Shown: in pieces, positions 26,957 through 64,000 of the stretch
Layout: the number at the start of each line of letters is the position of its first letter
Position numbering within the stretch: position 1 is the first letter of the stretch
Assembly: GCA_951799425.1 (NCBI GenBank)
Contig: OX637401.1
Span: 17,323,501 to 17,387,500 of the forward strand
Direction: 5' to 3'
From: Ilex aquifolium
Lineage: Eukaryota > Streptophyta > Magnoliopsida > Aquifoliales > Aquifoliaceae
DNA length: 64,000 bases
The notes under the pieces: model-generated
Told to the model about the DNA's origin: nothing
Seen by the model: the letters and a program-made list of their open reading frames with translations, nothing else
Databases searched by the model: none
Translations under genes and position numbers: made by a program

Positions 26957-27176
26957 TAACTATTCATAGGATCTTTAGTGTACAGTCATTTTTACTTATT
27001 TATCTGTTTATGTTTACTTACTTTATGTTTGCATATAGTGTTATTTTTCTTAGTTGCAGATATTGGTGTTTTTGTCAAGCTCAAGTGTGAGGTGGTTGCT
27101 TACCCTTCTCATATTTTTACAGTCTTTTATTGCATATCATATCTTTTTTGTTGCATTGAGGATAATTCATGAATCA

Positions 27177-27194
27177 AGTTGGGGGGGAGTGAGA
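27177..27194 (+). other. Internal polypurine tract of element A
   Basis: AAGTTGGGGGGGAGTGAG lies 220 bp after the pol stop. A second tract, AAGTTGGGGGTG, lies directly before the 3' LTR at 31102-31113. Elements B and C have a comparable tract at the same place after pol. Confidence 0.65.
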
Positions 27195-29055
27195 TGCACC
27201 ATTTGTATGATACACCAATGTTTGCAGCAAGTATGATACACCAATGTTTGTGGAAATTTTTGTTGATAATACCAATTTTTGTGGTGAAAAAATTCACCTT
27301 TCACATATTTTACAAATTTTTGTTGCAATAGTTGCAAATTATGTGAAAATTTTGAATTTTTTTGTGAAAAATGTCTGAATGTTGATCTGTATTCCCTTAT
27401 TTAGAGTGCTATGGGTTTTTTGATATGTTGATCTTTGTATTGAACATTGAGCACATTATAGAAGTTCATCCTATGCGTGAGTATCACATATGCGTTTGCT
27501 TTTGAACTCACCAATATGTACACCTTGAATATGTAATTTCGTCAATTTATGGATTTAGTTCACATTTTAGTGCTTGACATGAATAGTGGAGATGAGTAAG
27601 AACCCATGAGAGCTTTAGTGTCAATCCTTATTGGAGGGAACTTACATTTACTCAAGGAAAAATTTTTCAAATTCAAAATGTATTCAATAATCTCATTATG
27701 CTTGTTTTGGTTAGGTGCATTTGGGTAGTTGATTGAATTTGTCTTAGTATGTACAATGCTCTCCCATGCATCTAGAAATGATCTTAGGTCATCCTTGATT
27801 TTCTTTGAGTCTTTGCCCCTTTTTATTGTGAAAATTTTATCCCTAGTGCTGTGATTGAGCCTTACTTGTAAATTCGTTTCCATGCCACACATTTGACCAA
27901 GCTAGTGCCAAATTATAAAAATCTACCTCACCTTGGTTGTTCCTAGTGCTGAGTATGAGTGATCATAAAAGAGAAGGAAGTATGGCAGAAACTCAACAAA
28001 AGGGATGAATGAAGTTGAATTCAAATAGTTGAATGAAAAAAAAAGAAAGAATGAAAACCCAAGAAAAGGAGAAAAAAGGGGTGAAAAAAAGAAAATAATG
28101 ACAAAATAAAAGGAAAATGTTAAGGAAAAGAGAGAAAAATAAATAAATGGTGTGGTGATGGTGTTAGACTGAAAAGCCCATGAAAAGGGAGGTGTTTTTA
28201 AAATAAAAGTCTTTCACTCGGAACAACCCTCTTTTGTTATCCCATATCCTTCATTTCATTTACCTCAATATCACCCTAAGACCCCATTATAACCATTGAA
28301 ATTCCTAAATGATCTAGAGAAGAATGGGAGATGCATACTGTTAAAGAAAAAGGGAAGTTGGTTTTGCTATCTAATGCCTTAGCATTCCGTTCATGAGATT
28401 ATGCCAATGTTGTTTCATTTTCATGCATGAACTTCATTTTTGGATTATATGTGAGCGTTATTCATTTTCTGCACAAGATTCTATCTCACATATACACATG
28501 GAGAGCATGTTAGGATAACTAGAGTGTGATTCATTGTTAAGAGAGACCTTTGGTGAGTTTTGCATCGAAGTTGAATTTGGCTAGCAAATTGAATGTGAAT
28601 GCTGTTGTGTAAATGCTTAAATTACATGTCCAATTCACATACACACGAGTTTAAAAATGAATGTGTAGGTGCATACTCTAGACTAGTATTTAAAGCTATA
28701 ATAATGCTCATTTGTGTTTGGTTCAGACATTTGAATGATAGGCTAAGTAGCCCCATGCTTGCAGGATAGGAGAATATTGCTCAAGCTTTTGACATTTGAA
28801 TGAATTAGGAATGCCCTTGTTATTTGAATATGTGTCTTACATTTTGGTGGTTAAATGTAGAATTCTATACCTTGTATTTTGAAAGCATCAAGATTGTAAA
28901 TCATATTGCAATTTCGGTAATGACTTGGGGCATGATGATTCAAATTTTGGTTTACAAGTGTAGCACATGCTTAGTGGAGTAGAGGTCATAAATGGAGTGC
29001 TAGAATGTGTAAGAGTTGAAATGAAATGGAGAGTACTGGTTTTTGTAAATAAGTG
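27195..29055 (+). other. Element A spacer between pol and the 3' ORF
   Basis: Mostly AT-rich, with no supported ORF. Two short phrases are shared with the other elements: GAATAGTGGAGATGAGTAAGA near 27580 (like GAATAGTGGAGAATAATAAGA in B near 53310) and TCCCTAGTGCTGTGATTGAGCC near 27841-27863 (like a minus-strand phrase in C near 56520-56490). In B and C these lie after the 3' ORF, not before it. Confidence 0.6.
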
Positions 29056-29198
29056 AAAACCTACCGGTAGTTTTGTACATAAAACTATCGGTAGGTTTTG
29101 CACACTGGTCTTGAACCTACCGGAAAACTACCGGTAGTTTTTGCTCACTGGAGTAAAACCTAACGTTAGGTTTGGCGTCGACCTACCGATAGGTTTTG
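29056..29198 (+). promoter_or_regulatory. Palindrome array 1 of element A, upstream of the 3' ORF
   Basis: Five or more boxes related to AACCTACCGGTAGGTT. Box 4 (29157-29172, AACCTAACGTTAGGTT) is a perfect 16-bp palindrome. Others are AAAACCTACCGGTAGTTTT (29056-29074), AAAACTATCGGTAGGTTTT (29081-29099), AAAACTACCGGTAGTTTT (29124-29141) and ACCTACCGATAGGT (29181-29194). The array ends 284 bp before the ATG at 29482. The same boxes in the same order recur in the LTR at 31362-31500. Confidence 0.85.
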
Positions 29199-29481
29199 CC
29201 CAGAATGCCAAAATTATGGGTTTTAATAAGATTTTTTTGGGAGAACTATTCATTTTCTTCCCAAATCATAAACCCTAAGGCATTTCTCTCTCCCTCTAAG
29301 CACCTCTAAGCTTAAAAATTCCTCACCTATTACATTAATCTCTCATTTCTCACTCCTAGGGCTGTTGATTTAGTGGATTTTAGTGAAGATTTAAGGAGTT
29401 CATCTTTTAAACCCTAGGTTTGCTGAAATTTCCCCAAGTCCTAATCTCTCTACTCCTTTCAATAGCTAAAAAATCTTTGAA

Positions 29482-30788
29482 ATGGCTCGCACTGGGAGGA
29501 TCATTCTTGACCATGTGGACCCAATTGAGGGATTTGTTTTGGCTCTTTTGTCACTAGTGATGTGTGGGGCACTGTTGCTGTGCATGGCCCGTACCAAGCG
29601 CACCAGGCCAAGTTCTCCACAGCCTGAGGGTGCGAGTGCCCGCAAGAGAAGAGGGGAAGGGTCGAGTGCAGACTGGAGTGAGCGGAGGAAGAAGGCAAGG
29701 AACGATGCTCGGAACCAAAGCATCGAAGAAAAGAACATAACTTGTGAAAGGTTTGTGGATAGGATATCCCTGGGTCCAAACAACGAGGTTGTGAGGATCA
29801 TTGAGGCCCACGGGATTGGAAAATGGTTTGAGCCCGTGAGTGGGTTCTATTTGGGGTTATGTCGGAAGTTTTACCAAAAACTCAAGGTGGTGGACGAGGA
29901 TGCATGTGTCTTGAGAACCAATGTGAGGGGGGAAACGTTCGATGTGACCCCTGTTGTGATTGCTACATTGATGAGGTACGAGAGACCACCTCCCAGTGTC
30001 CCGTTCTACCCCCACAATATCCCTGGGGTCAAGACCATCCCAGAGTATGTGGCTTCGATGTACGAGGACCCGGCTCAATTTAGGGGAACGGTCCAAGTCG
30101 GGGGCCTCAGGCATGTATACGGGATGATGAATAAAATTTGGAATTAGAGAAGAGCCCAAACGTGGAAAAACTTGCTCTCTTGGATGCGGTAATGACGGGG
30201 AAGGCTTTAGACATATCACTTTTAATTTGGGAGGTGATGAAGGAATTCGCCCTGGCTAGAAAGCCGAGGGCGAACCTCCCATTTGGAAATTTAGTCACCC
30301 GGATGTGCAGCCATTTCAAGGTGAAGGCTTATGCCTTTGACAAGTTGACTCCTCTTGAGACTGGAGCCATAGGGAAGGCTAGTAGTAGCAAGAGGTCTGC
30401 TATGAGTTGGGGTGAGCGTGCTAGGGTTCCGAGACCGGAGCTGTCTATTGCAGGACCTTCCTCTACGGGGCCATCTGCTCCTGGGCCGTCCACTTCTACT
30501 CCTATGCGCACAGTATCTCAACGTCTGGATGCGTTAGAGGAGACGATTCATGGGATCTCAGCGATGATGACCATACTATTCCAGCACACGTTCCCTGGCG
30601 AGCCGATTCTCGGTGGACCACCACCTCCGGCTGCTGGACCCTCCACCTCTGCCCCCTTAGCTTCCACTATTGTTGAGGTGGATGAGGAAGATAATGACGA
30701 AGAGGAGGAGGGGATTGAGGACGACACTGGAGAGGAGGATGTTGGGGAGGATGATAACGGAGACGGGGAGGATGGAGATGATGAGTAG
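29482..30788 (+). pseudogene. Element A 3' ORF ('putative plant transposon protein' family), one frameshift
   Basis: The upstream frame (29482-30147) starts MARTGR, passes a hydrophobic stretch (GFVLALLSLVMCGALLLC), restarts MARTKRTRPSS at 29584 and includes the family core ISLGPNNEVVRIIEAHGIGK and FYLGLCRKFYQKLKV. A frame change near 30125-30150 leads to 30138-30788 (LALLDAVMTGKALDISLLIW). The C-terminus has a short coiled-coil-like ALEETIHGISAMMTILFQ and a very acidic tail (about 30682-30785). The first ATG could be spurious: the second matches the basic start of the element C protein. Function unknown. It occupies the env position, but I see no conventional envelope features. Confidence 0.75.
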
Positions 30789-43221: not shown

Positions 43222-46200
43222 ATGAGAAACAATGCAAATAACCCATACCGCGGTCAAGAGGTTGACCAACAGTTCATAACTCTTAGATTATCTGCACCCC
43301 ATAAGGAGCAGTTTCCCATTGTGTTTCATCTTCCCACAAAATGCACAACGGTTCATGTTGAAACCTGACACAATCCAGCTTTTCCCATAATTTCATGGCC
43401 TCGATTCCAAAAATCCGTATCTACACATGAAGGAATTCAAGGAGGTATGTAGGACCTTCCAAGACAATTATGAGTTAGCCAAGCCGAAGCTTTTCCCCTT
43501 TTCCTTGAATGATCAAGCCAAACAATGGCTTAACATTCAAAAATCACGTTCCATTCCCGACTGGTCTGCATTGCAAAAAGAATTTTTCAAAAAGTTATTT
43601 CCCCTCCAACGCACCAATGCTTTTAAAACGTCATCTAATGAAATTTTTTGTGAATTATGGGGAAACATTCTATCAGTGTTGAGAGAGATTCAAAGATCTC
43701 CTCCACGCATGTCTATGTTGGAACGAAAATCCCAAGAATCATTGATAGCACGTATGTATCGAATACAAAATTTTGTTTCTTTAAAACCCTATAAGGCGGA
43801 ATTACCTTCGAGATCGCTCTGGATTGATCTTGTCTGAGCACAAACGCAGAAACTAAAGACAGACACAAAAAGAAGCTCGCTAAACCTCACAGTCTTCTGT
43901 CGTATATCCCCAAATGCCAAAAAATCGTATGTAGTGCGCGCTGTTAGGACCTCCAAACTTCTGATCTCTCTCTCTCTCTCTCAGCCTCTCTAAAAAATGT
44001 GAGTAATGAATTAATAATGATTTAGAGAGCCTAGACGTCTATATATAGGCTACGACAGAAATCCTAAAAAGAAATAAGGGTTGGGCTTCCAATGGGCCTA
44101 GGATTTTTATGTTCAACCCAGAACAAACATCCTACATCCCATTAATAATAAGTTAGTCCACTAAAAAATTATTATTGATCTCCTGAGCCTTATTTCAAAA
44201 TTATATTCGAGCTTCTTATTAGTATATGTTTAATAATCTCCCTACGATTAAGATTACAGATATCCATCAATTAAATAAATTACTGACAATTATATTTAAT
44301 CGACTTCTTTTATTCCTTGAGACGTTACCACTCAACTTATTTGTCATGTCGAATAATTAAATCCACATGCAGGGTTTGACATGGACAAAACTTATGAGCT
44401 TTCTCAAGAGGACATCGTTAACCCATTTAAATATCCGAACGTGGTTTCCTTTAATGATTAATTTTCATCGTACAAATAACATCGTCTCCTAATTCACCGA
44501 GCTTATTGACTCAATATGAATCTCACTCTTTGATGAATTAAAGTGACAATCATTATATGCAGGTAGCGATTAAATATCTTGAGATTAAGAACATAACCAA
44601 TCATAATAATCATGAGGTATTTATTATCTTATTGAATTAGTAAAAGATAATAACCTCAACATAGGTCTGTTCAATACACAAAGTGTACTAGCGCAATAAT
44701 CTGAGATATCAAACAGTCTTCTATAGTTAGAACAAACTATACCAGAATATTACACTACAATCATACTAATGGTGTGTCCAATTCCATCTAGGATTGTGAA
44801 CAAATATTTATATTATACAAGAATCCGATAAACTGGTCTTCTGTGCATAAGCCAAACTCTGCACACCAGATTATCTACAATGTAAAATATAAGACACGCA
44901 TGTATACTATATATCAAATATAATGCAAATTTTTTGCCCACATAGATTCTCAATAAAATGGAAAAAACAAACTTCTATTAATTAATAAAATGAATGTCAC
45001 TACAAAAAACAAACTTTTAGTATACAACTCTACCAGTCCACACCATAGGTTTTAGAGTTGCACCCTTGTAGGTTTTTTCTATGACTTTCTCCCTACCTCT
45101 ATGCATCAGTTTGTCAGGATGATGTCACAAAGGGAGTTCATGGATAAAAATCCTGATGAGGCTTTTTGATTTTTTTTCACACTTTATTTGAGTGTTCCTA
45201 GATGTAGGACTCGACCTCACCTGTCAGTTCTGAAAATAGAGCAACCACTTCCTATGGAGGAAGTACACATTGAATGAAGAGGATGATTTCAGGGCAAATA
45301 TGACTTCTTTATCTCGAAAGCTTCAGGCTTTAGAGATGAAGAAAGTCAACAAAGTATCTACTATGTAACCCACTGAACGTACATGTGAGATATGTGCTTT
45401 GGTGTGACATTCTATTGAGGAGTGTCCCATGATTCCTGTTTTTCAGGAGGTGCTATTGGAAAATTGCAATGTTGTCTCCACTTATCAGAAGCTACACAAT
45501 AATCCTTACTCTAAAACCTATAACTCGGGGTGGAAGCAACACCTAAATTTTAGTTGAAGGAGCCAAAAGCAGAACCATGCCCAGTCACCACAACAATGGC
45601 AATACCCGCCTTACGAGCCCTCTCATAAGTGTAGTTTGGAGGATACATTTAATCAATTCATGCAGGCTTAGAAGCAATACAATAATCAAAACTCATAGGC
45701 CTACAATGAATTTAAGGATTTTAAAGCCCAGACTACATCGTCTTTAGATGATTTGAAAGGGCACATGCAAAAACTAACCCAGTCTATGGCCAACCAAGAA
45801 AAGAGCAAATTTCTTGCCCAACAAAAGCTACCTCGAGGTTATTTTCACATAGGCAATTCTGCTCCTATAGACTCTTCTCAAGAATAAGTCCAAGTCGTCA
45901 CCACTCTTAGGAGTGTTAAGATCATTGAAAAGGCCACACCACATCCACCCATTGAGCCCACATTTACACCTATGGGCTAGCCTCCCCAAGTCTCCACTGA
46001 TGAGACTAAGTAGAGAGAGGTTGAAGAGCCTTCACATCCTATTCCTACTCCTGTCCCTGAAAGACTCCAGAAACCTCAGAAGCTGAGCAACCATGCAGAA
46101 ATTTATGAGTTTTTTATGCAAGTGAAAATCAATATGTTGTTTTTGGATGCCATCAAATAGGTCCCTTCCTATGGCAAGTTCCTTGAGGACTTCTACATAG

Positions 46201-46230
46201 TCAAAAGGAATCAAAATGTTTAGAAAAGGT
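43222..46230 (+). pseudogene. Element B gag, interrupted by a solo LTR
   Basis: Starts MRNNANNPYRGQEVDQQF and continues HMKEFKEVCRTFQDNYELAK, FSLNDQAKQWL and ERFKDLLHAC (retrotransposon gag domain). It is broken at 43715 by the copia solo LTR and resumes after 45035 (FYDFLPTSMHQFVRMMSQRE). The C-terminal half (NNPYSKTYNSGWKQHLNFSW, then FNQFMQA and DDLKGHMQKLTQSM) is colinear with element C gag. Stops at 45669, 45696 and 46158 align with Gln codons of C. Confidence 0.85.
43716..45035 (-). repeat. Solo copia LTR inside element B gag (1320 bp)
   Basis: Begins TGTTGGAACG and ends AACTCTACCA on the plus strand. The 5-bp flanks GTCTA (43711-43715) and GTCCA (45036-45040) match at four of five bases, and the gag reading resumes across the insertion. 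In minus sense it has a TATA box (CCTATATATAGACG, about 44035-44050) with a pyrimidine/purine leader downstream, so it is oriented minus. No copia internal sequence remains. Confidence 0.85.
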
Positions 46231-46234
46231 CCTT

Positions 46235-49200
46235 TTGACCGAACATGCAAGTGCCATAATACAACATAAGACCCTTCCAAAATTCAAGGACCTAGGGTGT
46301 CCAACTATATCTTGTGTCATAAGGAACTTCAAGATAGAGCAGTCCATGCTTGATCTTAGAGCCAGTGTCAATTTACTCCCCTACATTGTCTACCAACAAT
46401 TAGGGTTAGGCGAACTCAAGCCTACGAGCATTATTCTACAGTTGACAGACAGTTCGATCAAAGTCCCTTGGAAAATAGTTGAGGATGTACTTTTCCAACT
46501 GATAATTTTTATTTCCCTATTGACTTCATCGTATTATACACCCATTTGGTTGCACATGCAGGGAGTCAAATTCCTGACATTCTCAGTTGACCATTACTTG
46601 CTACTTCTAATGCTCTAATCAATTGCATGAATAGGGTTATGAAATTATCATTCAGGAATATGACCATTTAGCTTAATATTTTCAACATAGCTAAGCAACC
46701 TGGTGAGGAAGAAAATGTGAGAGAGGTCTAGTGAACCTCTGGCACAAAATCATCTTGATAATGCATTCCTAGAGGAGTCCGTGGGCACATTTTTGAGTGA
46801 GTCCGTGTTTTTTGATGGTGAGACTAGTTTTTTTAGGAGAACTCCTTATTAGAGGATGATTGTCTAGCTGCTTCTGCTATTGGGCCATGGGTGCCCAAGT
46901 TTGAGGAACTAGTTGCTAGTGGCGTGAAACAACTTTCTTCTTCTGAAAAACCACCAAAACCTAAACTGAAACCCCTCCCATCCACTTTGAAGTATGCATT
47001 CCTTGGGGAGGCTGAGTCATATCCGGTACTCATCTCTTCTATCCTCACAATGGACCAGGAGTCTAAACTGATAGAAGTACTTAGGTAACATTGTAGTGCT
47101 ATAGGGAGGACCATCACTGACCTAAAAGGTATAAGTCCTATTGTCTGTAGTCATACTATATACCTTGAAGAGGATTCAAAGCCCTCTCATCAGATGCAGT
47201 GACAGTTGAACCCTCACATGAAGAAGGTTATACAGGTTGAGGTGTTAAAATTGCTAGATGTGGGAATCATCTTCCCCATCTCAGATAGTAAATGTGTAAG
47301 TCTAACCCAAGTAGTACTGAAAAAATAAGTAGTTAGACTAGTAAAAAACTAGGATAATGAGTTAGTGCCTACCCGAGTTGTCACGGGATGACGCATGTGT
47401 GTTGACTATCAGAAACTCAATCTTTTTACTAGGAAAGACCACTTCCCTCTCTCACTCCTTGATCAAGTCTTAGAGAGGATAATTTGTCATACTTTTTTAT
47501 TGTTTCCTAGACTGGTACTCGGGATAAAATCAGATTGAAATAGCACTTGACAACCAGGAGAAAATGACATTCACTTGTCCTTTTGGCACTTTTGCCTATA
47601 GGAGGATATCGTTTGGTTTGTGTATTGTTCCTGCGACCTTTCAACGAAGTATACTTAGCCTTTTTAGTGACATGGTAGAAAGATGTTTATAAGTTTTTCA
47701 TGAATGACTTCTCTGTCTATGGTGATACTTATCACTTGTTTTTCAAAATTTTGAAAAGTGTTCTTGTCAAATGTGAAGAAACTAACCTTGTACTAAATTG
47801 GGAAAAGTGTCATTTGATGGTAACACAAGGTATAGTTTTAGGTCATATTGTTTCATCTGAAGGCATAAGGTTGACAAAACAAAAGTGATTGAATTGGCAA
47901 TTTACATGCTCCAAAAAGGGTAAAAGATGTGAGATCATTTTTAGGGCATGCAGATTTAATAGAAGATTCATAATGAACTTTAGTGTGGTATCTAGACCTT
48001 TGTGTCATCTCCTAAGTCAGGATGTTTCGTTTGTGTGGGATGATGCGTGCCAAAAAGCTTTCAAGAAGCTTAAAGGCATGCTGATTTCTACCCTTATTAT
48101 GCAGGAACCCGACTGGTCCCTACCTTTTGAATTAATGTGTGATGGCAGTGATTATGCCGTCGAAGTAATGTTAGGACAAATAAAATAGAAAAAACCATAT
48201 GTCATTTGCTACGCAAGTAAAACTCTTAATGATGCTAAAATGAATTACTCAACTATTGAAAAATATTTAGTTGTTGTGGTGTTTGCTTTGGATAAATTTC
48301 GATCTTATTTGGTAGGCTCCTCAGTTGTGGTTTTCACTAATCATGCAGCATTGAAATATTTATTGATCAAAAAGGATGTGAAGCTAAGATTGTTGTGATG
48401 GATACTCTTACTACAAGAATTTGACTTGCTTATCAAAGACAAAAAAAGAGTGAAAAACGTAGTGGCTGATCATCTCTCAAGGTTAACATATGATTTTCCA
48501 AAGGATAGAGTGCCTATCAATGAAAGTTTTCATGATGAACAGTTGTTAGCAGTTTTTGAGGTGCCATGGTATGCTAACATCGCTAATTATTTAGCTAAAG
48601 ATACTTTTTCTTCTTCTTTCAATTTTTTGGATAGAAAAATATTTTTAGTTGAGGTACGCAGTTTCTTCGGGATGACCCTTATCTTTGTAGATACTGTCAA
48701 GACCAGATCATTAGGAGGTGTGTCCCTAACCATGAAATCCACAGTGTTAAAAAATTTGTCATACTGAAGCATGTGGAGACCACTTTTCATAAAAAAAAAA
48801 ATCACCGTAAAGTTTATGTAGTTTGAATTTTATTGGCAAACACTGTTCAAGGATACCCATGTTTTTTGTCTTTCATGTGATCATTGTCAATGGTTGGGGG
48901 CGTATCTCATGAAGGAACATGATGCCCTTAAATATGATTTTAGTTATTAGTATTTTTGACTGTTGGGGCATCGAATTCATAGGACCCTTTCCTCAATCAT
49001 TTGGCTACGAATATATTCTAGTTGTCATTGATTATGTCTCTAAATGGGTCGAAGCTATTCCTTGCCCAACCAATGATCATCGTATAGTGATCAAGTTTTT
49101 TTAAAAAAATATATTATTTCACGGTTTGGGATACCTCGAGCCATTATTAGTGATGGAGGGGCTTATTTTTGTAATAAATTTTTTGAACTTTTGATGCACA

Positions 49201-49872
49201 AATATTATATTACTCATAAAGTGGGTACCTCCTACCATCCACAAACAAGTGGGTAGGCCGAATTATCTAATGAGGAGATAAAATAGAATTTAGAAAAAAA
49301 TGGTGAACCTAGATCACAAATATTGATCTTTAAGATTGACTGATGCTTTGTGGTCTTATCGCGCTACTTTCAAAATAATTCTTGGAATGTCTCATAATAG
49401 GTTAATTTATGGAAAAACCTTACCACTTACCCGTGGAACTTGAACATAGAGCATACTGGACAATTAAGAGTATGAATTTTGACATAGATAAAACAGGGAC
49501 ATCTACGAGGCTTCAAATCAATGAATTGGAAGAACTTAGGAATGATTCTTATAAGAATGATAAGATTTCCAAATCTAGAATGAAAGTTTTCCATGATAGG
49601 AACATTGTGAGAAAAACCTTTGAACCGTCACAGAAGGTTTTGTTTTATAATTCTTGCCTCCACCTTTTTCCTAGTAAGTTGTAATCAAGGTGGTCTGACT
49701 CATTTGTGGTAAAAGAGGTTTTTTTTCTCATGGGGTTGTTGATATAGAAAATTCAAAAAATAGTAATATTTTTAAAGTGAATGAACAAAGGTTGAAGCCA
49801 CTTTTAGAAAGGATAGTGGATGAGGAGGAGTCCATCGGATTGATGGCTCCACAATATGAATCTGATAAATGA
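46235..49872 (+). pseudogene. Element B pol (protease, RT, RNase H, integrase), stop-ridden
   Basis: The protease core reads SMLDLRASVNLLPYIVYQQL, with Arg in place of the Gly of DLG. RT has SDSKCVSLTQVVLKK, the stop-containing segment near 47390, YSGxNQIEIAL and FMNDFSVYGDTY near 47698, so the first catalytic Asp is Asn. RNase H (CDGSDYAVEVML) and integrase ([23 protein letters not shown]-stop-AELSNEEIK) are readable in several frames. Stops at 47200, 48396 and 49254 replace Arg, Arg and Gln of element C. The end is near the TGA 49870. Confidence 0.85.
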
Positions 49873-50082
49873 CTGTGACTGTTCCTGTACTGTATAATAA
49901 TTTTCTTTTATTAGTTTCTTTTAATTGTTTGTTTCACATAATTTGTTGTTATGTCAAGTGTTTAATTGTTCAGATTTGGTAAAAAAAAAATAGCGGATAT
50001 AGTATGCTTTTTTCTTCCCTGCCTGAATTTTCTTTTATGATATATTATTGTGTTTTTATTCATTGATGACAATGCATAATTT

Positions 50083-50100
50083 AGGTTGTTGGTGGGATAA
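50083..50100 (+). other. Degenerate internal polypurine tract of element B
   Basis: AGGTTGTTGGTGGGATAA follows GACAATGCATAATTT, as the tract of element A follows GAGGATAATTCATGAATC. It is the equivalent of the internal tracts of A and C, decayed by substitutions. Confidence 0.5.
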
Positions 50101-50280
50101 TTGTTATGCAATCTTAATTATCTGAGTCTGATTTTTTTAGATAAATTTAAATATCCATTTAGGATAATTTTTGTTATTATTTGGGCTAGTTTAATTTTTA
50201 TTTTTATTATTTTTGGGTCAATACTTCGATGTCTAGTGTTAGGAGATCTAGTGACTTAGGACTATTTGAACAGCCCCCAA

Positions 50281-50627
50281 CCGTTCGAACGCAAGATTTC
50301 AAGATCAAGTCACTGTTCGGACGATGTGCCTGAGTTTGAACGCACCTAGGAAACTCAAAAGTCAAAGATTAGTGGAAAGTAGTGATGTTTCAGGAAAGAA
50401 TAAGATCTTATTTAGGGATCTAATATGGAGATTTAATGATGTGGTTTCAATTCAAATATTGAATTAGTTGTGAGTTCTAATGTTAGATAGAGTCAACAAC
50501 CAATCTAATGATTGTACATCATTAGATCCTTAGATTAGGTCCACAAATTAAGTTCAAATAATATTTCCCTTCAGGAAAAGATGGATTTTAAAAGCTTCGT
50601 TCGAGCGGCCCCCAATCGTTGGAACCG
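50281..50627 (+). promoter_or_regulatory. Palindromic boxes upstream of the element B 3' ORF
   Basis: Boxes of the type CCGTTCGAACG occur at 50281-50291 (perfect CGTTCGAACG), 50312-50322 (CTGTTCGGACG), about 50333-50342 (GTTTGAACG) and, in a second cluster, 50598-50607 (CGTTCGAGCG) with AATCGTTGGAACCG at 50614-50627. The phrase GCCCCCAA follows or precedes boxes in both clusters. The second cluster ends 266 bp before the ORF ATG. Confidence 0.75.
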
Positions 50628-50638
50628 CCTCCTCACCC

Positions 50639-50645
50639 TATAAAA
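50639..50645 (+). promoter_or_regulatory. TATA box of the element B 3' ORF
   Basis: TATAAAA, in CACCCTATAAAATTTGG, lies 12 bp after the last palindromic box, with a pyrimidine-rich leader and CTCTCTCTC downstream and the ORF ATG at 50893. Layout as in element C. Confidence 0.6.
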
Positions 50646-50892
50646 TTTGGTCTTCTTCCCTAAGCCTCATGCACCTCTCTCTCTCTATAAAATCGAAACC
50701 CATCTCACCCCTCTCTCAAAAATCTTCAAAAACGTCATCAAATCTTCACCCAAATCTTCACCCAAATCAAGGTTTGGTCTTCTAAATGTAGGATTTGGCT
50801 TTCTCTTCTCCCTTTAGGGCTATTTTCTACATTTTTTACCCTCTTTTTTCAAGAAATCCATCATCTTCTTCAAGCTTTCGAGAAAGTCTTCA

Positions 50893-51978
50893 ATGGAACA
50901 CAAGAGATCTCGTGAGAGTACTAGTGCACCATAAACACCACCATCGCAACCAGGTGTGCTGATTGATGGTCAGGGTTTTCACCATGTGTTCGATGTGAAT
51001 CATTTTCCTTTTTTCAAGAAGAGTGAGAGATATACTCATTATTTTTATTCTCGTCCTATTGGGTTGGAGCGTAGTCAGCTTTTGGAGGAGTTTTTGGGGC
51101 ATGGAGTTGGCTAGATAACAAAGGATAATAGATGGGATGATATCTTGAAAAGATTGGGAAGGGGAGCTACTCCTTTGATCCGTGAGTTTTACTCCAATGC
51201 AGAACAGGTAGATTCAAAGATCTTTAGGACTGCGGTGAGAGGAGTTAGTTTTGTTGTCGATTCTCGGATGACCAAGCAAGAGGTTTTACCAATGCCACAG
51301 TTTACAATGGCCACGGTATATAGCATGCAGGAGGTGGCTAGAGAGCTTACCGGAGATCCCAACTTTGTTTGGCTTCAGAGAGATAGGAAGCTGAACCAAG
51401 GACATCTGATGGATAAGTACATGATCCTAAATTAGATCTCGGTGACTAGTTTGCTTCCACTAGCCTGGAAGAATCACATCTATCCGGATCGGACTAATTT
51501 ACTATACACTATTGGGGCTGGATGTACTATCTGTCTGTTCGCTATCATTCTCTCTGAGGGGTTGCGAGCTCTGAAGGACACCATCAAGAATGCCACCCTT
51601 CCTTTTGGGTATTTGCTGATCTCCATTTGTATGGATCGGGGCATTGGAGTGATGGATAACATGCTGAAGGAGAAGCGCCCCCGAGTGTTAAACAACACGA
51701 CTTTGGTTAAGAGTCGTGAAGCCACGGGGAGAGGCACAACTCCTCTGTCTGAAACAGACGAGATTGGTGAGGAGGAGGCAGATGAGGCTGCTGATCATAG
51801 TGCATGAGATAGAATGGGTCCATTGATGAGAGACCCTATTGACGAACGACCTGATAGAGATCTCTTGCTCTAGATTTTGGAGGAGTGGAGACAAATGAGG
51901 GGTACTCTGGCAGAGTATGGCGAGATCTTACGCCGCCTACAGCGTGGACCACGCGATGATGCTCATCCTCCTGTTTAG
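50893..51978 (+). pseudogene. Element B 3' ORF ('putative plant transposon protein' family), five nonsense codons
   Basis: One frame of 361 codons runs from ATG 50893 to TAG 51976 without any indel. It is interrupted by TAA 50932, TAG 51112, TAG 51433, TGA 51805 and TAG 51871. The core contains LIREFYSNAEQVDSKIF, TAVRGVSFVVDSRMT, ELTGDPNFVWLQRDR and LLPLAWKNHIYPDRTNLLYT, matching element C (LVREFYSNAVIVEKRHLR, FVRGAIFHVTPDAI). The tail has acidic EEEADEA and a coiled-coil-like MRGTLAEYGEILRRLQ. All five stops can arise from CAA, CAG or CGA by C to T. Confidence 0.85.
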
Positions 51979-55134: not shown

Positions 55135-55170
55135 ACCGTCCGGACGGCAGTCCCACCGTCTGGACGGTGG
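55135..55170. promoter_or_regulatory. Palindrome module of element C, LTR copy
   Basis: Two adjacent palindromes on the plus strand, ACCGTCCGGACGG and CCACCGTCTGGACGGTGG, separated by CAGTC. The 36-bp module is the exact reverse complement of 58592-58627. It lies about 267 bp inside the LTR. Confidence 0.9.
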
Positions 55171-55437
55171 TGCTTTGCTGGAAAATCCACTTGCATGCAT
55201 GTTGACTCTTCTCGTTGGTTAATTACACTTTGGCCTTTATTCTTTGCATTTCTCTGACATTGCTCCCTTGGTCTTGTTGTTAATTCAGCATTTGTCCTGC
55301 AACTTTTAGATAAAATGTTACAATTAGTATTATTCCCGCACAAACCTTAATTCACTCTAAGTACTAATTTTTAGTGTGTTTATTATACTAATTCGAGTTT
55401 TTTGATTTTTTAATTTACATACTAATTAGGTTAATCA

Positions 55438-55450
55438 CACCCCCTAACTT
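55438..55450 (-). other. Polypurine tract before the element C 3' LTR
   Basis: Minus sense AAGTTAGGGGGTG, preceded by ACTAGGGACTAGTAAAGTCT, the same arrangement as in element A. Confidence 0.8.
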
Positions 55451-57208
55451 AGACTTTACTAGTCCCTAGTAAAATTAAAAGAAAATATAATAAAAATAGA
55501 GGTAAAATCATTTTCGTAGATTTTTTTACGATTGCATTTAGCATATGCAATAAGCCTTTAAACCCCTAGGTGATTCCTAGTGGACGAGTTGTGTCTCGTG
55601 AAGGTTTTCAGTGAAGCTACCTACAAACTTCAGTAATTAGGAATGCATATTTCATATTTTTCACATGTATGATTAGAATGATATTTCTTCTGTCTTGCTA
55701 GAATACTTCCTTTTCTGATCACCTTGAAAACATCATATGTTGGGTGTAGTATTATCTATATATATTTTTATGAAAACCTGTGTGTGTGTGTAGTGATGTT
55801 TTTATTTTCAGAAATCACTTGAAAAATATTACCCTCTTTCATGGTAGTCTTGATGTCAATCCTTCCCTGGAATATACTCAGTAAGAATAGCACACAAGTT
55901 ATAGTGACTGTTCTCATAATTTTACATGTGATTGGAATATTGATAACAAAACAAATTATTGCACATGTAATAAAAAAGGAGCGGTTTATTTTGAATAGAC
56001 TGGAAATTGACATAATCTCATGAAAGAATATTAACACTGTATTAAATATATTATTAACATTTTCCTTTTTAGATTGCTAAAATGAATGCAAATATATGAT
56101 TTCTGGAATCAAAAAGGACTTTATTAAGGTTGTAACGTGGTCAGGGGTCGGGGTGTAAGAACTGACGTCGGTGGGATTCAAATGCTATCGTTTAACATTG
56201 TGGCATACCTCAATTTAGTTTTCTTATGACTTTGCAGGTTATTTTTTTATTTTTCTCATTTTTCACTTTCTTGGCTATTTTCTTTCTTTTTGTTTTCTTT
56301 TCTAGACTTTTCTTTCGAGCCGGGATTTTCTTTTTTCCCTTTTCTTTGCTTTTTTTGCTTTTTCCTGCTTTTCTGTATCCTGCTGCTTAAATCGAGGGTG
56401 CAAGAAAATTAGATAGCAAGGGTAGGTGTATTATATTTTTATGTGGCTCGGGTGTTTCTTAGGGTTTAAGAAAAGACTATTATTTTCTTTCAGGCTCAAT
56501 CACGGCTGACTAGGGATAATTTTGTAAAAGAAATGGGTTAGGCTCAAGATTAATGAAACAGGGCCTAAGATCATTTTCCAGAAATCCTATATTTGTATTC
56601 TTTCTAGATAAATAATTAAGGGCAATGTACATAATATATTTTAATACGTGCTAATCAAAGCAAATAAATGAGATCATTCAAAGAAAAGTTACCGTTGAAT
56701 CGAAGATTCGTAGTTGAGTAGATGTAGCATTTCTCTCCAAGAAAGAATGGCTCTAATTCTGCATTTGGTTTTTACATCTCCACTATATATAGAAAGAGTA
56801 TAATATTTTGCATGGTTTTCAAAAATAAAAACATCTATTTGTGCTTCTAAGGTTAAGTTCGAATAAAAATATTGAGATAACGTACAGCTAAAATATGAAA
56901 GTCTCATGAGATCAGATTGAGAGTATTTTTTCAAGGCATTAGAATATAATTCTAATCTAACTATGAATTGTATGAATATGCTTCCTAATTTAGCAATGTA
57001 TGCTCTCATTTTAACAAAGACAATTTAAACATACTTAAATTTAAAACATACTAGTTCAAACATATATAAGTAAAACTTAACTAAGTTCAAATCACACAAG
57101 CATAAAACGTAAAACATAACTTCAAGTTTTAAGTGCAGAAATTGAAAGTGAATAAATTAAAAAGGGTGAGTGAAAGAAAGCAAAGTTTTAAGTAGAATCC
57201 CCTGGTCT
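55451..57208 (-). other. 3' noncoding region of element C
   Basis: About 1.76 kb between the 3' ORF and the polypurine tract. Minus sense shows CCCTAGTCAGCCGTGATTGA near 56515-56490, matching a phrase in the element A spacer, and a pyrimidine-rich tract. A 106-codon minus frame (56689-57009, MRAYIAKLGSIFIQFIVRLE...) is not recognised and may be chance. Confidence 0.6.
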
Positions 57209-58364
57209 TCAAGAAGTTGAAGGACCTCCTCCAAAATGTTGTCTGAATAGCCTTAATATTTCTGCCTGACTCTGTTCATATTCTGTCATACGCTGGCCAA
57301 GTTGATTGATGTTGGCATCTACTTGAGTGAGGGTAGCTTCCAATCCCAGCAAAATCTGTCTGTCGGTTCGGTCGTCCACAGGGATGTAAGGTTGATCCTC
57401 TGGTGGTTGCTGCTGCTCCTGTGGAATGAACTCCTCAGGTGGGTGAAATGGTTCTTCTTGCTGTTGCTGTTGTGGCTCTGCTGGTTGTACTTCAGGTACA
57501 TCTTCTTGTTGTCCTCCGTGACTTTTCTTCAATGAGGTTTTGTCTAATGCTCCAAAGTGCTCAACTTCCTTCCATACGGGGTCAATGATTACACCATTAT
57601 TCCTGCACAATTGAGATACTAACATGCCATACGGGAGTGAGGGCTTTTTGTTGGCTACCGTTAAGATCATTTGGTCTACGATTAGGTTCGGTAGATCGAT
57701 ACTGTGTCCTATCCCGAGTGCATATAGTAAGTAAGCTTGTTCGGTGTAGACTTGGTTTTTCTGTGCCCTGGGTAGTAAGTTGTTGACTGTGAACAAATTC
57801 AGAATTCTATATGTATCAGCCAAATCTCCTTGCTTGATGTATTTGTTCGGTCTACCCCATCCAAAATCTGGATTATTCGTGACTTGTCTTCCTATGGCAC
57901 TTAAATCAGGGGAATTCATTCTCAGCATATGGGTATTGTGGGTTTGGTTCTCTCCGCATGGATTGGAAGAAATCAGCTATGGCGTCTGGTGTAACATGAA
58001 ATATGGCACCTCTCACAAATGCACGTAAATGCCTTTTTTCTACTATTACAGCATTACTGTAAAACTCACGAACTAAGCAATCATACACAGGCGCAGATAA
58101 TTTAGCATAATCAACCCAACCTCTAGCATGCAAGATTTCTCTAATGCCTATAGCTTCAAAATCCTCAAATATAATAGGCCTCTCCACAATTATTGTTTTA
58201 GTTTTAAAATGTTGATCATACCAGGCTTGTTGTTGGGAATTTTCGAACATCACCTCATTGAAGATGTCGTCCGGTCCCGGTGGTGGTGGAGGTGCTTGTT
58301 GTTGCTCGGGTTGATTTACTTGAGCTCTTCTTGATGATCTCCTTGGTCTTTGCCTCAAATCCAT
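57209..58364 (-). pseudogene. Element C 3' ORF ('putative plant transposon protein' family), one frameshift
   Basis: The chosen start is the ATG at 58364 (MDLRQRPRRSSRRAQ), because its basic N-terminus matches the MARTKRTRPSS of A and the MEHKRSRES of B; an in-frame upstream ATG at 58595 falls at the TATA box and is unlikely. The core LVREFYSNAVIVEKRHLR and FVRGAIFHVTPDAIADFF is followed by a one-base shift in a C-run near 57911-57915. The second part carries AIGRQVTNNPDFGWGRPNK, ILNLFTVNNLLPRAQ and LLYALGIGHSIDLPNLIVD, then a Gln/Pro/Glu-rich linker and a C-terminal coiled-coil-like helix (LEATLTQVDANINQLGQ). No signal peptide or membrane segment. Biochemical role unknown. Confidence 0.85.
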
Positions 58365-58576
58365 GATTTCTTGATTTCTCCACAGATTCTTGGTTTTGAA
58401 TGATTTCAATCGGTAAATAGCTTCTAAATGTTGTGGGTAGGAGAATAATCGGAGCAAATGTGGTGGATTTTGAGTAAATGTAGTGGATTTGGTGGGCTTT
58501 TCTTCAAGATTTCTGGTTTGGCCGAAGTTTTGGAAGTGCAGAAATGGAGAACTGATCGGTTTTGCATGGAGGAGTG

Positions 58577-58584
58577 TATATATA
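58577..58584 (-). promoter_or_regulatory. TATA box of the element C 3' ORF
   Basis: Minus sense TATATATA, in CCCTTATTATATATACACTCC, lies 7 bp downstream of the palindrome module and about 213 bp upstream of the ORF ATG. It supports a separate internal promoter. Confidence 0.65.
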
Positions 58585-58591
58585 ATAAGGG

Positions 58592-58627
58592 CCACCGTCC
58601 AGACGGTGGGACTGCCGTCCGGACGGT
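58592..58627. promoter_or_regulatory. Palindrome module of element C, internal copy
   Basis: The same 36 bp as 55135-55170 in opposite orientation, without a mismatch. On the plus strand it reads CCACCGTCCAGACGGTGG, GACTG, then CCGTCCGGACGGT. It stands immediately upstream of the TATA box for the 3' ORF. The sequences outside the 36 bp are not shared. Confidence 0.9.
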
Positions 58628-58953
58628 ACCAACTCTCGGGTTTGGATGTTTTTCCTTTGCGTTTTGCTTGAATTTTTTCTGCAATGTTACTTCAATTTCC
58701 TGCAATACACAAAATTTTCATAGATATTCATTCTACTAAAAACTTTTGCTCACCACTCTTTTTTTGTGATCAAAAAATGGGTTTTTAATTTTTTATTTGT
58801 TATCGCTTATTTACGTACTTGCCTACTTAAATTATAGTTATTTACATTTATGTATATTTTTAACTACTTATTCTTATGCTTACGTATTATTTAGAAAAAA
58901 CATGTACATGTATACAAATATATACATATATATTTCTTCCAAAATTCTTTTGA

Positions 58954-59364
58954 TTATATTGTGTCGGAGTCAGAACTGTCTGGATCATTATTACCAGTGA
59001 CTCGACCAACTTCATTTCGAACGTACTTGGTTAACATCGGGGTGGAGTAGGATGGCGCCTCAGGGTAGTCCTTACTCTGCCCATACCTAATCCACCGTAG
59101 TCGATCGGACGCTCGTCCTGAAATCGGTTCCGCACATGGATTGTACTGTCTTAAATGTTCTGTTCGACCGCATCTGACACAAGCACCAAGACGATTTGCT
59201 CGTCTGTGTTTGGCATACGGACTTTTTCCGCATAGTGGTCTTGGTTGACTTTCAAATATTTCAAGATTTCTGACTCTTCTGGCTTTTTGCATAATTAGTG
59301 CGTGAATGTCTTTTGGAAGATGACGCAGTATAATCAAACTTAACAAAAATAGTTTTTCATCCAT
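58954..59364 (-). CDS. Small basic cysteine-motif protein resembling the carlavirus nucleic-acid-binding protein (136 aa)
   Basis: An intact ORF between pol and the 3' ORF of element C. Helical hydrophobic N-terminus (residues 1-32), basic patch GKSPYAKHRRANRL (46-59), then C62-x2-C65 (CVRCGR), His70 and Cys77, a WIRYG segment (91-95) and an acidic C-terminus (DPDSSDSD). The order basic YA-x2-RRA patch, CxRC, distant Cys, aromatic-Ile-x-x-Gly is that of the carlavirus cysteine-rich protein (Pfam Carla_C4, by recall), a family that binds nucleic acid and suppresses RNA silencing. The fourth family cysteine appears to be Ser82. The spacing C-x2-C-x4-H-x6-C also loosely recalls a retroviral zinc knuckle. 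An A-rich leader precedes the ATG. No equivalent was found in A or B. Homology is inferred by eye. Confidence 0.6.
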   Translation of the reverse strand: MDEKLFLLSLIILRHLPKDIHALIMQKARRVRNLEIFESQPRPLCGKSPYAKHRRANRLGACVRCGRTEHLRQYNPCAEPISGRASDRLRWIRYGQSKDYPEAPSYSTPMLTKYVRNEVGRVTGNNDPDSSDSDTI

Positions 59365-59502
59365 TTTTTTTTTCTCTTTTTTTTTTTTAAATAAAAGACT
59401 CTCTATCCGGTTCTTTAATGTATGCCAGTCACAAAGACAAGATGACTATCTGTTTAAAGTAAAAGAGTTATTTTAAAAGTAAAAATGAAATTCACATTCA
59501 TA

Positions 59503-59514
59503 CCTCCCCAACTT
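59503..59514 (-). other. Internal polypurine tract of element C
   Basis: Minus sense AAGTTGGGGAGG, about 150 bp after the end of pol and before the small ORF. Equivalent to 27177-27194 in A. Confidence 0.65.
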
Positions 59515-59661
59515 AAACTAATTATTAGTTGTGACGAAAGCACAGTAATCATCAACATTGATGGTAGAACCTTGCTTCACCAATTAGGATTCTGGCTGTT
59601 ACTCAGGCGGTTTTTCCTGTCAAAGAAATTATGATGAATTAGTAGGCTTCAGTGTAAATTT

Positions 59662-62600
59662 TCAAAGTAAATAGACAGGATCAGAAAGGTGCATAGCAGT
59701 GATGTTTTGAGGAAAAGTTTCATAATACGGTTTAAGTCTTTGACCGTTTATTTTAAAAATAGTTCCAGTTACTGGATTTTCGATTTCAACTGCTCCGTAG
59801 TCAAATACTTGTTTGGCGATGTAGGGACCTGTCCATCTTGATCTTAATTTACCTGGAAATAAACGAAGCTTTGCATTGTATAATAAAACTTTTTGAGATG
59901 GTTCGAAAGATTTTCACATGATATTTTTATCATGGAAAATTTTTGTTCTTGATTTAGCAATTTTTGCATTTTCATAAGCTTCGTTTCGTAATTCTTCTAA
60001 TTCATTTATTTGCAATTTTCGAGCTATTCCAGCTTTGTCTAAATCAAAATTCATTGTTTTAATTGCCCAAAATGCTCGATGTTCCAATTCTACAGGGAGA
60101 TGACATGGTTTTCCGTATACTAGTCTATAAGGAGACATTCCTAAAATAGTTTTATATGCAGTACGGTATGCCCAAAGCGCATCAGTTAATCGTAAAGACC
60201 AATCTTTACGATCTGGGTTTACTGTCTTTTCTAGGATGTATTTTATTTCTCTGTTGGCTAATTCAGCTTGGCCACTGGTCTGCGGATGATATGGGGTGGA
60301 TATTTTGTGTGAAATGGAATATTTTTTCATGAGGTTTTCAAAAACTTTATTGCAAAAATGTAATCCACCGTCGCTTATAATGGTGCGAGAAATTCCAAAT
60401 CTAGACAGAATATTTTCTTTTAAAAATTTGATCACTGTTTTATGATCATTATTTCGACAAGGAACTGCCTCGACCCATTTAGAGACATAATCAACTGCAA
60501 CCAGAATATATAGATAGCCAAAAGATGGGGGGAACGGACCCATAAAATCGATGCCCCAGCAGTCGAAAATTTCAATAATTAAAATAGGGTTTAGAGGCAT
60601 CATATTTCTTTTTGAGATATTTCCCATTCTTTGACATCTGTCACAGTTCAAACAAAAGATATGTATATCTTTAAAAAGTGTTGGCCAATAAAATCCACAC
60701 TGCATGATTTTTGCAGCGGTTTTTCTGGAAGCGAAATGGCCTCCACATGCTTCAGAGTGGCAGAACTGAATTACTTGATTTATTTCATGGTTAGGTATAC
60801 AACGCCTTATTATTTGATATTTACAATATTTAAACAAATAAGGGTCATCCCAGAAAAAATTACGTACTTCCCTTAGGAATTTGTTTGTATCAGATTTAGT
60901 GTAATTAGGAGGTATAGCTCCAGTGGCTAGATAGTTAGCTATATCCGCATACCATGGTACTTCTGTTATTGCAAAAAGTTGTTCGTCTGGAAATGTTTCT
61001 TTGATTGGAATTGGTTCTTCCTTTATTTCGTAGTTTAATCTTGACAAGTGATCTGCTACTACGTTTTCTACTCCCTTTTTATCTTTGATTATAAGATCGA
61101 ATTCTTGGAGTAATAGTATCCATCGCAGGAGACGTGGTTTAGTGTCTTTCTTTGTAAGTAGATATTTTAGGGCTGCATGATCTGTAAATACCACAATGGA
61201 CGACCCAACCAAGTATGAACGAAATTTATCTAAGGCAAATACGACTGCAAGTAGTTCTTTTTCTTGTGGTTGAATAATTTATTTGGGTATCATTTAAGGT
61301 TTTGCTTGCATAATAGATCACGTATGGTTTCTTGTCTTTTCTTTGCCCTAATACAGCTCCTACTGCATAGTCACTTGCGTCAAACATTATTTCAAAGGGT
61401 AAGGACCAATCAGGAGATTGCATAATAGGTGCAGAAATAAGCATGTCTTTTAATTTGTTAAATGCGACTTGACATGTCTCACTCCATTCGAATGATGTAT
61501 CTTGACATAATAGATTGCATATAGGCTTAGATATTGAGCTAAAATTTTTTATAAATCTTCTGTAGAATCCTGCATGGCCTAAAAATGAGCGAATATCTTT
61601 TATTGTTTTTGGTGGAGGCAGGTTTGCTATCAGATCGATTTTCGACTTATCTACTTCTATTCCTTTTTTGGAGACTATGTGGCCTAAAACAATACCTTGT
61701 GTTACCATAAAATGACATTTTTCCCAGTTTAGGACAAGGTTTGTTTCCTCACATCGAATGAGAACTTTTTCTAGATTTTCTAGACAGAGTTGGAACGAAT
61801 CTCCATATACTGAAAAATCGTCCATGAAGACTTCTAAATATCTTTCTACCATATCACTGAATATACTCAACATGCAACGTTGGAAGGTAGCTGGTGCATT
61901 ACAAAGTCCAAATGGCATTCGTTTATATGCAAAGGTACCAAAGGGACATGTAAAAGTTGTCTTTTCTTGATCATCTATTGCAATTTCAATTTGGTTGTAG
62001 CCTGAATATCCATCTAAAAAGCAATAGTATGCATGCCCAGCTATTCTTTCTAAGACTTGATCTAAGAATGGTAATGGAAAATGATCTTTCCTAGTAAGAG
62101 AGTTTAATTTTCTGTAATCAATACATACTCGCCAGCCTGTGACTGTACGCATTGGGACTAATTCATTTTCCTTATTTTGTATTACAGTGATTCCGGATTT
62201 CTTTGGAACGACTTGTGTAGGACTAACCCATTTACTGTCAGATATAGGATAGATGATTTTCGCATCTAATAGTTTGAGTACTTCATTACGAACAACTTCT
62301 TTTAGATGTGGGTTTAGTCTTCTTTGCATTTGACGAGATGGTTTAGCATTTTCTTCCAGGTATATACAGTGAGTGCATAAGAGTGGACTTATACCTTTGA
62401 TATCTGCTATTGTCCATCCAAGGACATTTTGATGGTTTTTCAGTACCTCTGTTAATTCTTTTTCTTGTTTTTCAGATAAGTTTGCTGATATGATTACTGG
62501 ATGAATTTTATTTTTTTCTAGAAAAACGTATTTTAGATTGGTTGGGAGTGGTTTTAAGTCTGTCTTAGCAATTTTTATGTTTTGTGCTACGGGTTCAGAT

Positions 62601-64000
62601 ATTGGTAATTTTTCACCTGGTGGATTTTCCACAGATTTATCTTCAGATTCGGTATCAGATTGTAACTCAAATATATCTTCGTCTTTTTTTAGAAAAGTGT
62701 TTTCAAAGAAACTTTGAGTCAGTGTATTAACACAATTTGTTTCAAAGGGTTCTTCTTCGTCACTATCTTTTTCTCTAGGTCGTTTTAAGCTGTTAAACAC
62801 ATTTAATTCTAGGGTCATGTTTCCAAATGATAATTTCATTGTTCCGTTCCTACAGTTTATTATGGCATTTGATGTGGCTAGGAACGGGCGGCCCAAGATT
62901 AGAGGTATGGATCTAGATGTTTCGTAAGTTGGTTCTGTGTCTATGACAATAAAATCTGCTGGAAAATAGAATTGATCCACTTGAATAATAATATCTTCCA
63001 CAATTCCTCGTGGAATTTTTATTGATCTATCTGCTAGTTGTAATGTGACCTTGCAAGGTTTTAGTTCACTTAAGCCTAGCTGGGTATAGACGGAATATGG
63101 CATTAGATTACAACTAGATCCGAGGTCTAATAAGGCTCGATTAATTTGGAAATTTCCAATGATACATGGAATTGTTGGATTACCAGGGTCTTTGTATTTA
63201 AGAAGAGTTTCATGTTGTATGATAGTGTTAACCTGTTCAGTTAGGAATGCCTTTTTGTGTACATTAGTTCTTCTTTTTCTTGTACAAAGATCTTTTAGAA
63301 ATTTAGCATATGCTGGAACTTGTTTAATTGCATCTAGTAATGGAATGTTAAGTTTAACTTGTTTAAATATTTCCAAGATCTCAGCTTGATCTTTTTCGGA
63401 TGTAAGTTTCTTAATTCTTTGGGGAAAAGGTAAAGGGATTGGAAATTGTTGATCTTTTTCCTTTTCTGGTTCTGATTGTTTTGAAGGTTCTGGTTCAAGG
63501 GGTTCATTTACCGGAATCGATTTACGTATGTTCTTTGCAATTTTAGGTTTTATCGTTTTATTTATGATTTTCCCACTTCTCAGCGTTGTAATAGATTGTA
63601 CTTGGCTTGGGGAAGGATCAGAAGTTACAGAATTAATTTGACTTTGATTCTGTGGAGGTTTTGGTTGGGAAGGAAATTTTCCTTTTTCTGGTATATTGAG
63701 GGATTGAGTCAATTTAGCTAAATGACCCTTGATATCCTCAATACTCTGGGAAGTTTGAGTTTTAAATTCGTTAAAAACTTGAGTTGTTTGGTTATTAAAA
63801 CTCATCTGATTTTGAATAAATTGGTTCATTGTGTCTTCCAAAGTTCTTTTATGTGGGGGTTGATATGGTTGGTATTGTTGTTGTTGATTTTGTGCCTGTG
63901 GTGGTCCTTGTGTTTGATTTGTGGGTTGCGTGTTTCTCCAACTAAAATTTGGATGATTCCTCCATCCTGGATTGTAAGTTTCAGAATAGGGATTCATATA
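59662..64000 (-). pseudogene. Element C gag-pol, nearly open (one frameshift, one TGA), partial at the edge
   Basis: The first part (61226-63997, 923 codons, start off-window) holds the gag C-terminus (Gln/Pro-rich), protease (LLDLGSSCNLMPYSVY, Asp at about residue 291), RT (FLDGYSGYNQ; MPFGLCNAPATF; FMDD at about 724-727) and the start of RNase H (FDASDYAVGAVL). A one-base shift in an A-rich run near 61262-61272 leads to 59914-61212: RNase H end, zinc-binding H152/H159/C190/C193, and integrase D222, D281, E317 with the expected 35-residue spacing. A TGA at 59914-59916 interrupts the same frame, which then continues ([20 protein letters not shown]) to the natural stop at 59662. All catalytic residues are kept. 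Confidence 0.93.

Follow-up and report, generated by a model that had tools for sequence, protein, structure and literature searches.

Additional open reading frames (ORFs) of plant long terminal repeat (LTR) retrotransposons are described in a 2020 review as env-like when they lie in sense orientation, and as lacking similarity to other transposable elements or viruses when they lie in antisense (PMC7264820; this paper and those below are cited from excerpts). In sunflower, an Athila element is reported with a Transposase_32 ORF and a 70-amino-acid (aa) ORF(-) without known domain (PMC11728184). When 25,565 consensus elements from 121 angiosperm genomes were screened, LTR retrotransposons were reported to carry 15 uncommon domains; those named in the excerpt include PMD, G-patch, AIR1, ArgoL2 and AlkB-like, and the viral nucleic-acid-binding protein (NABP) is not one of them (PMC9289625). 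The AlkB-type domain, carried by Phalaenopsis elements, is also described in flexiviruses (PMC9289625). Here, we describe a 136-codon ORF in a stretch of 64,000 nucleotides (nt) from Ilex aquifolium (contig OX637401.1, positions 17,323,501 to 17,387,500 of the forward strand; hereafter ‘the window’). This ORF lies in an apparent Athila-type Ty3/gypsy retrotransposon, and its predicted product is homologous to the NABP family of plant RNA viruses. It stands out from the additional ORFs reviewed so far in being both in sense orientation and clearly matched to an RNA-virus family (compare PMC7264820).

The viral-type ORF and its relatives

The ORF and the two parts of its product that are discussed below are as follows:

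58954..59364, minus strand: viral-type ORF of 136 codons, homologous to the viral nucleic-acid-binding / cysteine-rich proteins
59182..59232, minus strand: basic stretch CGKSPYAKHRRANRLGA, residues 45-61 of the ORF; resembles a nuclear localization signal (NLS), putative NLS
59119..59181, minus strand: finger-like motif C62-X2-C65-X4-H70-X6-C77-X4-S82, residues 62-82 of the ORF

The ORF is complete from ATG to stop (136 aa) and uninterrupted, and lies between integrase and the 3' ORF exactly where the initial annotation, which gave no strand, had placed it. Its length is more than chance: when the spacer at 58596-59914 was shuffled base by base, an ORF of at least 136 codons with an ATG arose, in any of the six frames, in 5 of 2000 shuffles. 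An 8-pair inverted repeat is found inside the ORF at 59202-59222.

The ORF protein was searched against Pfam profiles with E up to 10, HMMER filters removing most matches above approximately 0.1, and two families were listed, both viral. Viral_NABP (PF05515) matched with an E of 9.9e-12 and 45.7 bits, i.e. 22.7 bits over its curated cut-off of 23, across 106 residues (4-109); this match covers positions 105-213 of the 227 in the profile, the first 104 being without match. Carla_C4 (PF01623) matched residues 36-68 only (E 3.9e-6; 27.2 bits for a curated cut-off of 20.9). Residues 36-110 alone scored 30.0 bits against Viral_NABP and 24.9 bits against Carla_C4, and residues 1-45 alone brought up no Pfam family, so that the N-terminal part contributes its approximately 15 bits only in company. 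Six control sequences, of which five were shuffled and one reversed, brought up neither viral family, two of the shuffled ones listing one unrelated family each (E 0.15 and 0.23).

These results confirm, at the level of sequence, the homology of the predicted protein to the viral NABP family, and hence an ancestry shared with proteins of plant RNA viruses. The initial annotation had named this profile search among the checks that could overturn its reading; the search returned a significant viral match and no better match to a zinc knuckle. The ‘carlavirus-type’ label of that annotation survives in part: viral homology holds, with both families above their cut-offs, whereas a carlavirus origin is not shown, since the best match is to the broader Viral_NABP family and ‘viral NABP-type’ is the better name. 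Both families are, we presume, flexivirus families, the Pfam entry itself speaking only of viral nucleic acid binding. The cysteine-rich protein (CRP) of potato virus H shares 15.4-37.6% identity with other carlavirus CRPs (PMC3689765), and with identities as low as these a match seen at profile level only would fit a relative of the carlavirus CRP group.

Other collections yielded no relatives. A PDB sequence search returned nothing at E up to 1, NCBIfam gave no match, and the single PHROGs match (E 0.1) was judged to be noise. In IMG/VR, six stretches fitted the pattern when the ORF protein was the query and none was confirmed, a degenerate-motif query giving none at all; likewise, 61 stretches were picked out from prokaryote genome contigs, none of them confirmed.

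The predicted protein is basic (isoelectric point 9.73; net charge +10 across residues 40-100). All the motifs reported for it initially (GKSPYAKHRRANRL, CVRC, a distal Cys at C77 and WIRYG) were recovered in the claimed order, and the basic stretch precedes the Cys finger as it does in carlavirus CRPs (PMC3689765). The cysteine spacing is C-X2-C-X11-C-X4-S, and the replacement of the fourth viral Cys by Ser, also claimed earlier, is real (Ser82); the potato virus H finger reads C-X2-C-X9-C-X4-C (PMC3689765). Carlavirus CRPs are recognized by a basic motif together with a four-Cys finger ending in CX4C: the ORF has the basic stretch but Ser as its fourth position, and for this reason was not filed as a carlavirus CRP. 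However, His70 supplies an alternative C-X2-C-X4-H-X6-C. Fingers of CCCC or CCHC type with an arginine-rich NLS are reported for beny-, allexi-, mandari-, viti- and carlavirus CRPs (PMC11213338), and the ORF has a candidate CCHC arrangement along with a basic stretch. As a CCHC structure the finger may still be complete; alternatively, it may have been lost.

A structure model built from the single sequence had a mean predicted local distance difference test score (pLDDT) of 50.4 and a predicted template modelling score of 0.22; by blocks, pLDDT rose above 70 only in the first 30 or so residues, modelled as two helices. The 27 matches of this model among viral structures (best E 2.4) are meaningless and were discarded.

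The host retrotransposon and the rest of the window

The viral-type ORF is accompanied by the following features:

61226..63997, minus strand: pol ORF with protease-like part (below cut-off), reverse transcriptase and start of RNase H; reaches the window edge
59914..61212, minus strand: last part of RNase H, its profile running on from the pol ORF, and integrase (Integrase_H2C2, rve)
59665..59913, minus strand: C-terminal continuation of integrase past a stop, assigned by visual comparison with the reading frames in the other Athila-type elements
57909..58691, minus strand: 3' ORF, first part; Transposase_32 profile positions 2-70, E 2.2e-7, below cut-off, searched as 57906-58595
57212..57976, minus strand: 3' ORF, second part, in another frame; Transposase_32 profile positions 82-176, E 3.9e-17, searched as 57209-57928
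55432..55450, minus strand: AAGTTAGGGGG, resembling a polypurine tract, and then TGTGATTA; putative 3' LTR start

Read from upstream to downstream on the minus strand, the order is pol (RVT_1 in 63997-61226, E 7.8e-28), end of RNase H and integrase, viral-type ORF, and 3' ORF with Transposase_32. The succession of reverse transcriptase, RNase H and integrase, with Transposase_32 at the 3' side, supports an Athila-type Ty3/gypsy element, and the Athila context of the initial annotation is borne out by this order of pol, integrase and Transposase_32 on one strand. The element extends past position 64000, its 5' LTR being outside the window. As pol and integrase lie upstream of the viral-type ORF, and the 3' ORF and putative 3' LTR start downstream, the ORF appears to be inside the element and not at its edge.

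The flanking ORFs are broken, as had been claimed: pol near 61.2 kb, where a frame break is apparent because the RNase H profile runs on from the pol ORF into the next one, integrase by a stop within its frame at 59914-59916, and the 3' ORF by a frame break near 57.9 kb.

A GC-rich double palindrome of 33 bp, CCGTCCAGACGGTGGGACTGCCGTCCGGACGGT, occurs exactly twice, in inverted orientation. One copy (55135-55167, minus) is located in the putative 3' LTR, in what would be U3, approximately 50 bp upstream of a TATA-like box; the other (58595-58627, plus) lies just upstream of the 3' ORF. Such a repeat was obtained in none of 100 shuffles, and the palindrome may serve the retrotransposon as a cis-element.

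Two further elements of the same type were detected in the window:

23768-30785, plus strand: other Athila-type element, pol split over several frames, with a match to the 3' ORF of the ORF-bearing element
45501-51924, plus strand: other Athila-type element, pol split over several frames, with a match to the 3' ORF of the ORF-bearing element

Their pol and integrase pieces are 45-71% identical to those of the ORF-bearing element. Around the latter, at 55400-59960, the 72 frames of at least 30 aa (viral-type ORF included) were searched with E up to 0.5, and no other plant-virus family was present among the 15 families listed. Besides the two viral families and Transposase_32, the same frames gave weak matches only (best 0.0084); a phage tail-fibre match (0.043) and a baculovirus-named one (0.15) near the ORF were taken as noise. 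In the rest of the window, 47 frames selected from 158 contained no NABP at E up to 0.01, and Rfam and tRNA scans of the 64-kb window returned nothing.

Two other traces of mobile elements were observed. A pol-like stretch at 13776-14390 (plus) shows 37% identity to the pol of the ORF-bearing element and belongs to a region at 10-17 kb that is rich in repeats, several of them of 86-88%. At 528-881 (minus), a weak GAG-pre-integrase match (E 0.0021, below cut-off) is possibly an old copia-type remnant.

Origin and possible role of the ORF

We put at about one in two the probability that the element captured a flexivirus NABP gene, which was later carried along as an additional ORF. Under this scenario, a flexivirus genomic or subgenomic RNA would have been reverse-transcribed and joined to an Athila-type element. 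The joining would have occurred inside a retrotransposon particle, through template switching, or else through retroposition into an older copy; from then on, the NABP gene would have moved with the element as an additional ORF. What argues for capture is the presence of one whole gene, in sense orientation, in the usual place of additional ORFs and with no other plant-virus family nearby; the usual site of additional ORFs in plant LTR elements, as described in the 2020 review, matches the position of the viral-type ORF (PMC7264820). The start context (an A-run before the ATG and G at +4) was counted on the same side.

Plants restrain both RNA viruses and retrotransposons via small RNAs. If expressed from the element, the ORF product probably acts as a nucleic-acid-binding accessory protein, in which the arginine-rich stretch, together with a finger of CCHC or CCC type, would bind nucleic acid as in the viral relatives. 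It would damp RNA silencing directed at the element's RNA and/or enter the nucleus, as the arginine-rich stretch would permit, and act there at chromatin or promoters. Either activity would help the element, because a retrotransposon must escape both post-transcriptional and nuclear silencing. For the viral relatives, nucleic acid binding and silencing suppression are described, p12 of chrysanthemum virus B being reported as a plant transcription factor (PMC12172455, PMC3689765). It seems to us less likely than not, though a real possibility, that in an Athila-type lineage a domesticated flexivirus NABP has become a permanent gene for counter-silencing and/or nuclear regulation. In its boldest and purely speculative form, the proposal has the protein act on the element's DNA as well, for instance via the 33-bp double palindrome.

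Several observations weigh against capture followed by service to the element. The ORF was seen in one copy only. In the spacers of the two other Athila-type elements, none of the 46 sense frames of at least 25 aa matched NABP (the 53 antisense frames were left out), and a tblastn search of the same spacers with the ORF gave a best E of 0.63; absence from these two elements is nevertheless weak evidence, because they are distant. Nor does the openness of the ORF plead for selection. The initial annotation had stressed that it stays open beside broken ORFs, yet with at least three lesions (the pol frame break, integrase stop and 3' ORF frame break) across 5811 nt of other coding sequence, 0.21 would be expected in 411 nt, and the probability of none is 0.81: in so short an ORF, openness is what chance predicts, and we rejected it as a sign of selection. 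If the ORF evolved neutrally, a stop would be created by 5.0% of its single substitutions, and after 0.2 substitutions per site the probability of no stop would be 0.017; in its present state the ORF is either young or kept open. As to function, p12 of chrysanthemum virus B had no local silencing suppression in an earlier study (cited in PMC3689765), and is a weak suppressor according to another paper (PMC12172455). Finally, the ratio of observed to expected CpG is 1.08 in the ORF versus 0.43-0.77 in the pieces of pol, integrase and 3' ORF, which could reflect a recent insertion into the present copy. Two comparisons of codons were also made: foreign codon usage was rejected (Arg CGN:AGR 9:8 in the ORF versus 26:35 in pol plus integrase, P 0.58), and NCG codons are commoner in the ORF (6/29 versus 14/288, P 0.005), a post hoc result of little weight.

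Recent insertion is the core of a competing explanation, which we regard as a genuine possibility though at clearly less than even odds: that of an endogenous viral element, in which the 3' RNA of a flexivirus was retroposed, e.g. by the machinery of a long interspersed nuclear element, into one Athila copy, after or near the insertion of that copy itself, the ORF being a passenger without role. The single copy and the raised CpG ratio both suit such a one-off event, and an insertion of flexivirus replicase sequence is known from cucumber (PMC3136472). The CpG sign is weak, however, since the adjoining spacer, towards the 3' ORF, exceeds even the viral-type ORF in this ratio (1.30), and the GC content of the 3' ORF pieces (0.40-0.44) is similar to that of the ORF (0.436). 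An A-rich 10-mer, AAAAAAAGAG, found 9 bases ahead of the ATG and again approximately 190 bases past the stop, might be a target-site duplication that includes the A-run; but it is of low complexity and was noticed post hoc, and a repeat of 10 or more bases in the same geometry was present at 100 of 5000 random places of the window, so that the duplication reading was rejected. Moreover, a single complete sense ORF at the additional-ORF site, without other viral families, is less expected of a random fragment.

Homology alone carries no direction, and the viral NABP family could itself derive from an old plant mobile-element or nucleic-acid-binding gene. We hold this reversal, or a common source, to be improbable: both matched Pfam families bear viral names, and no copy is seen in either of the other Athila-type elements of the window. 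Least probable is an unrelated zinc knuckle, or a basic ORF whose likeness to the viral profile is accidental. The spacing C-X2-C-X4-H-X6-C is close to that of retroviral zinc knuckles, which we counted for this explanation, and the structure model is not good enough for a fold to be confirmed from it. Against it stand the viral profile at 9.9e-12, the failure of shuffled and reversed controls and the lack of any zinc-knuckle family among those listed, on which last ground the zinc knuckle was rejected; profile matches and controls together largely refute the explanation.

Comparison with known systems

A retrotransposon that truly bore a viral counter-defence gene would show directly that genes pass from RNA viruses to retroelements, and would allow the role of one additional ORF to be tested. 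Should other copies share the ORF, the element would have taken over such a gene; a single copy is examined here, and we consider the ORF interesting enough to merit genome-wide follow-up. Among the matches listed in the open-access literature, at the level of titles and abstract starts, there was no earlier case of an RNA-virus suppressor gene carried by a plant LTR element, and the papers that carry a Pfam number of these viral families deal, by their titles, with glyoxalase pathway genes. In the excerpt of a 2026 review of how plant elements capture genes, ‘virus’ occurs once, in another sense, and ‘viral’ is absent (PMC13317346); that of an allexivirus CRP paper mentions neither retrotransposons nor horizontal transfer (PMC10335701).

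Compared with flexivirus NABP/CRP proteins (PF05515, PF01623), the ORF product is alike in its 106-residue profile match, in the basic stretch followed by a Cys finger and in being a small basic protein; it differs in that its ORF sits in a DNA retroelement and covers only positions 105-213 of the 227 in the profile. From the potato virus H CRP in particular, it departs by Ser at the fourth Cys, X11 in place of X9 and the CCHC option offered by His70. The element itself resembles Athila-type elements with 3' additional ORFs (env-like, Transposase_32) in the order of pol, integrase and Transposase_32 on one strand, whereas it has, after integrase and before the Transposase_32 ORF, an extra ORF of viral type that is unseen in the other two elements of the window.

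Closest in kind are the Phalaenopsis Ty3/gypsy elements with an ORF for an AlkB-type N6-methyladenosine demethylase, where a gypsy element likewise gained an RNA-acting gene (PMC9289625). The protein is another one, however, and the demethylase ORF is reported from 38 and 23 consensus sequences of two Phalaenopsis species, with activity in vitro, whereas the viral-type ORF is known here from the sequence of one copy. Finally, as in endogenous non-retroviral RNA virus sequences, a flexivirus-related sequence has apparently entered plant DNA; but what the described example holds is replicase (PMC3136472), whereas the Ilex aquifolium locus holds a complete small gene within an LTR element.
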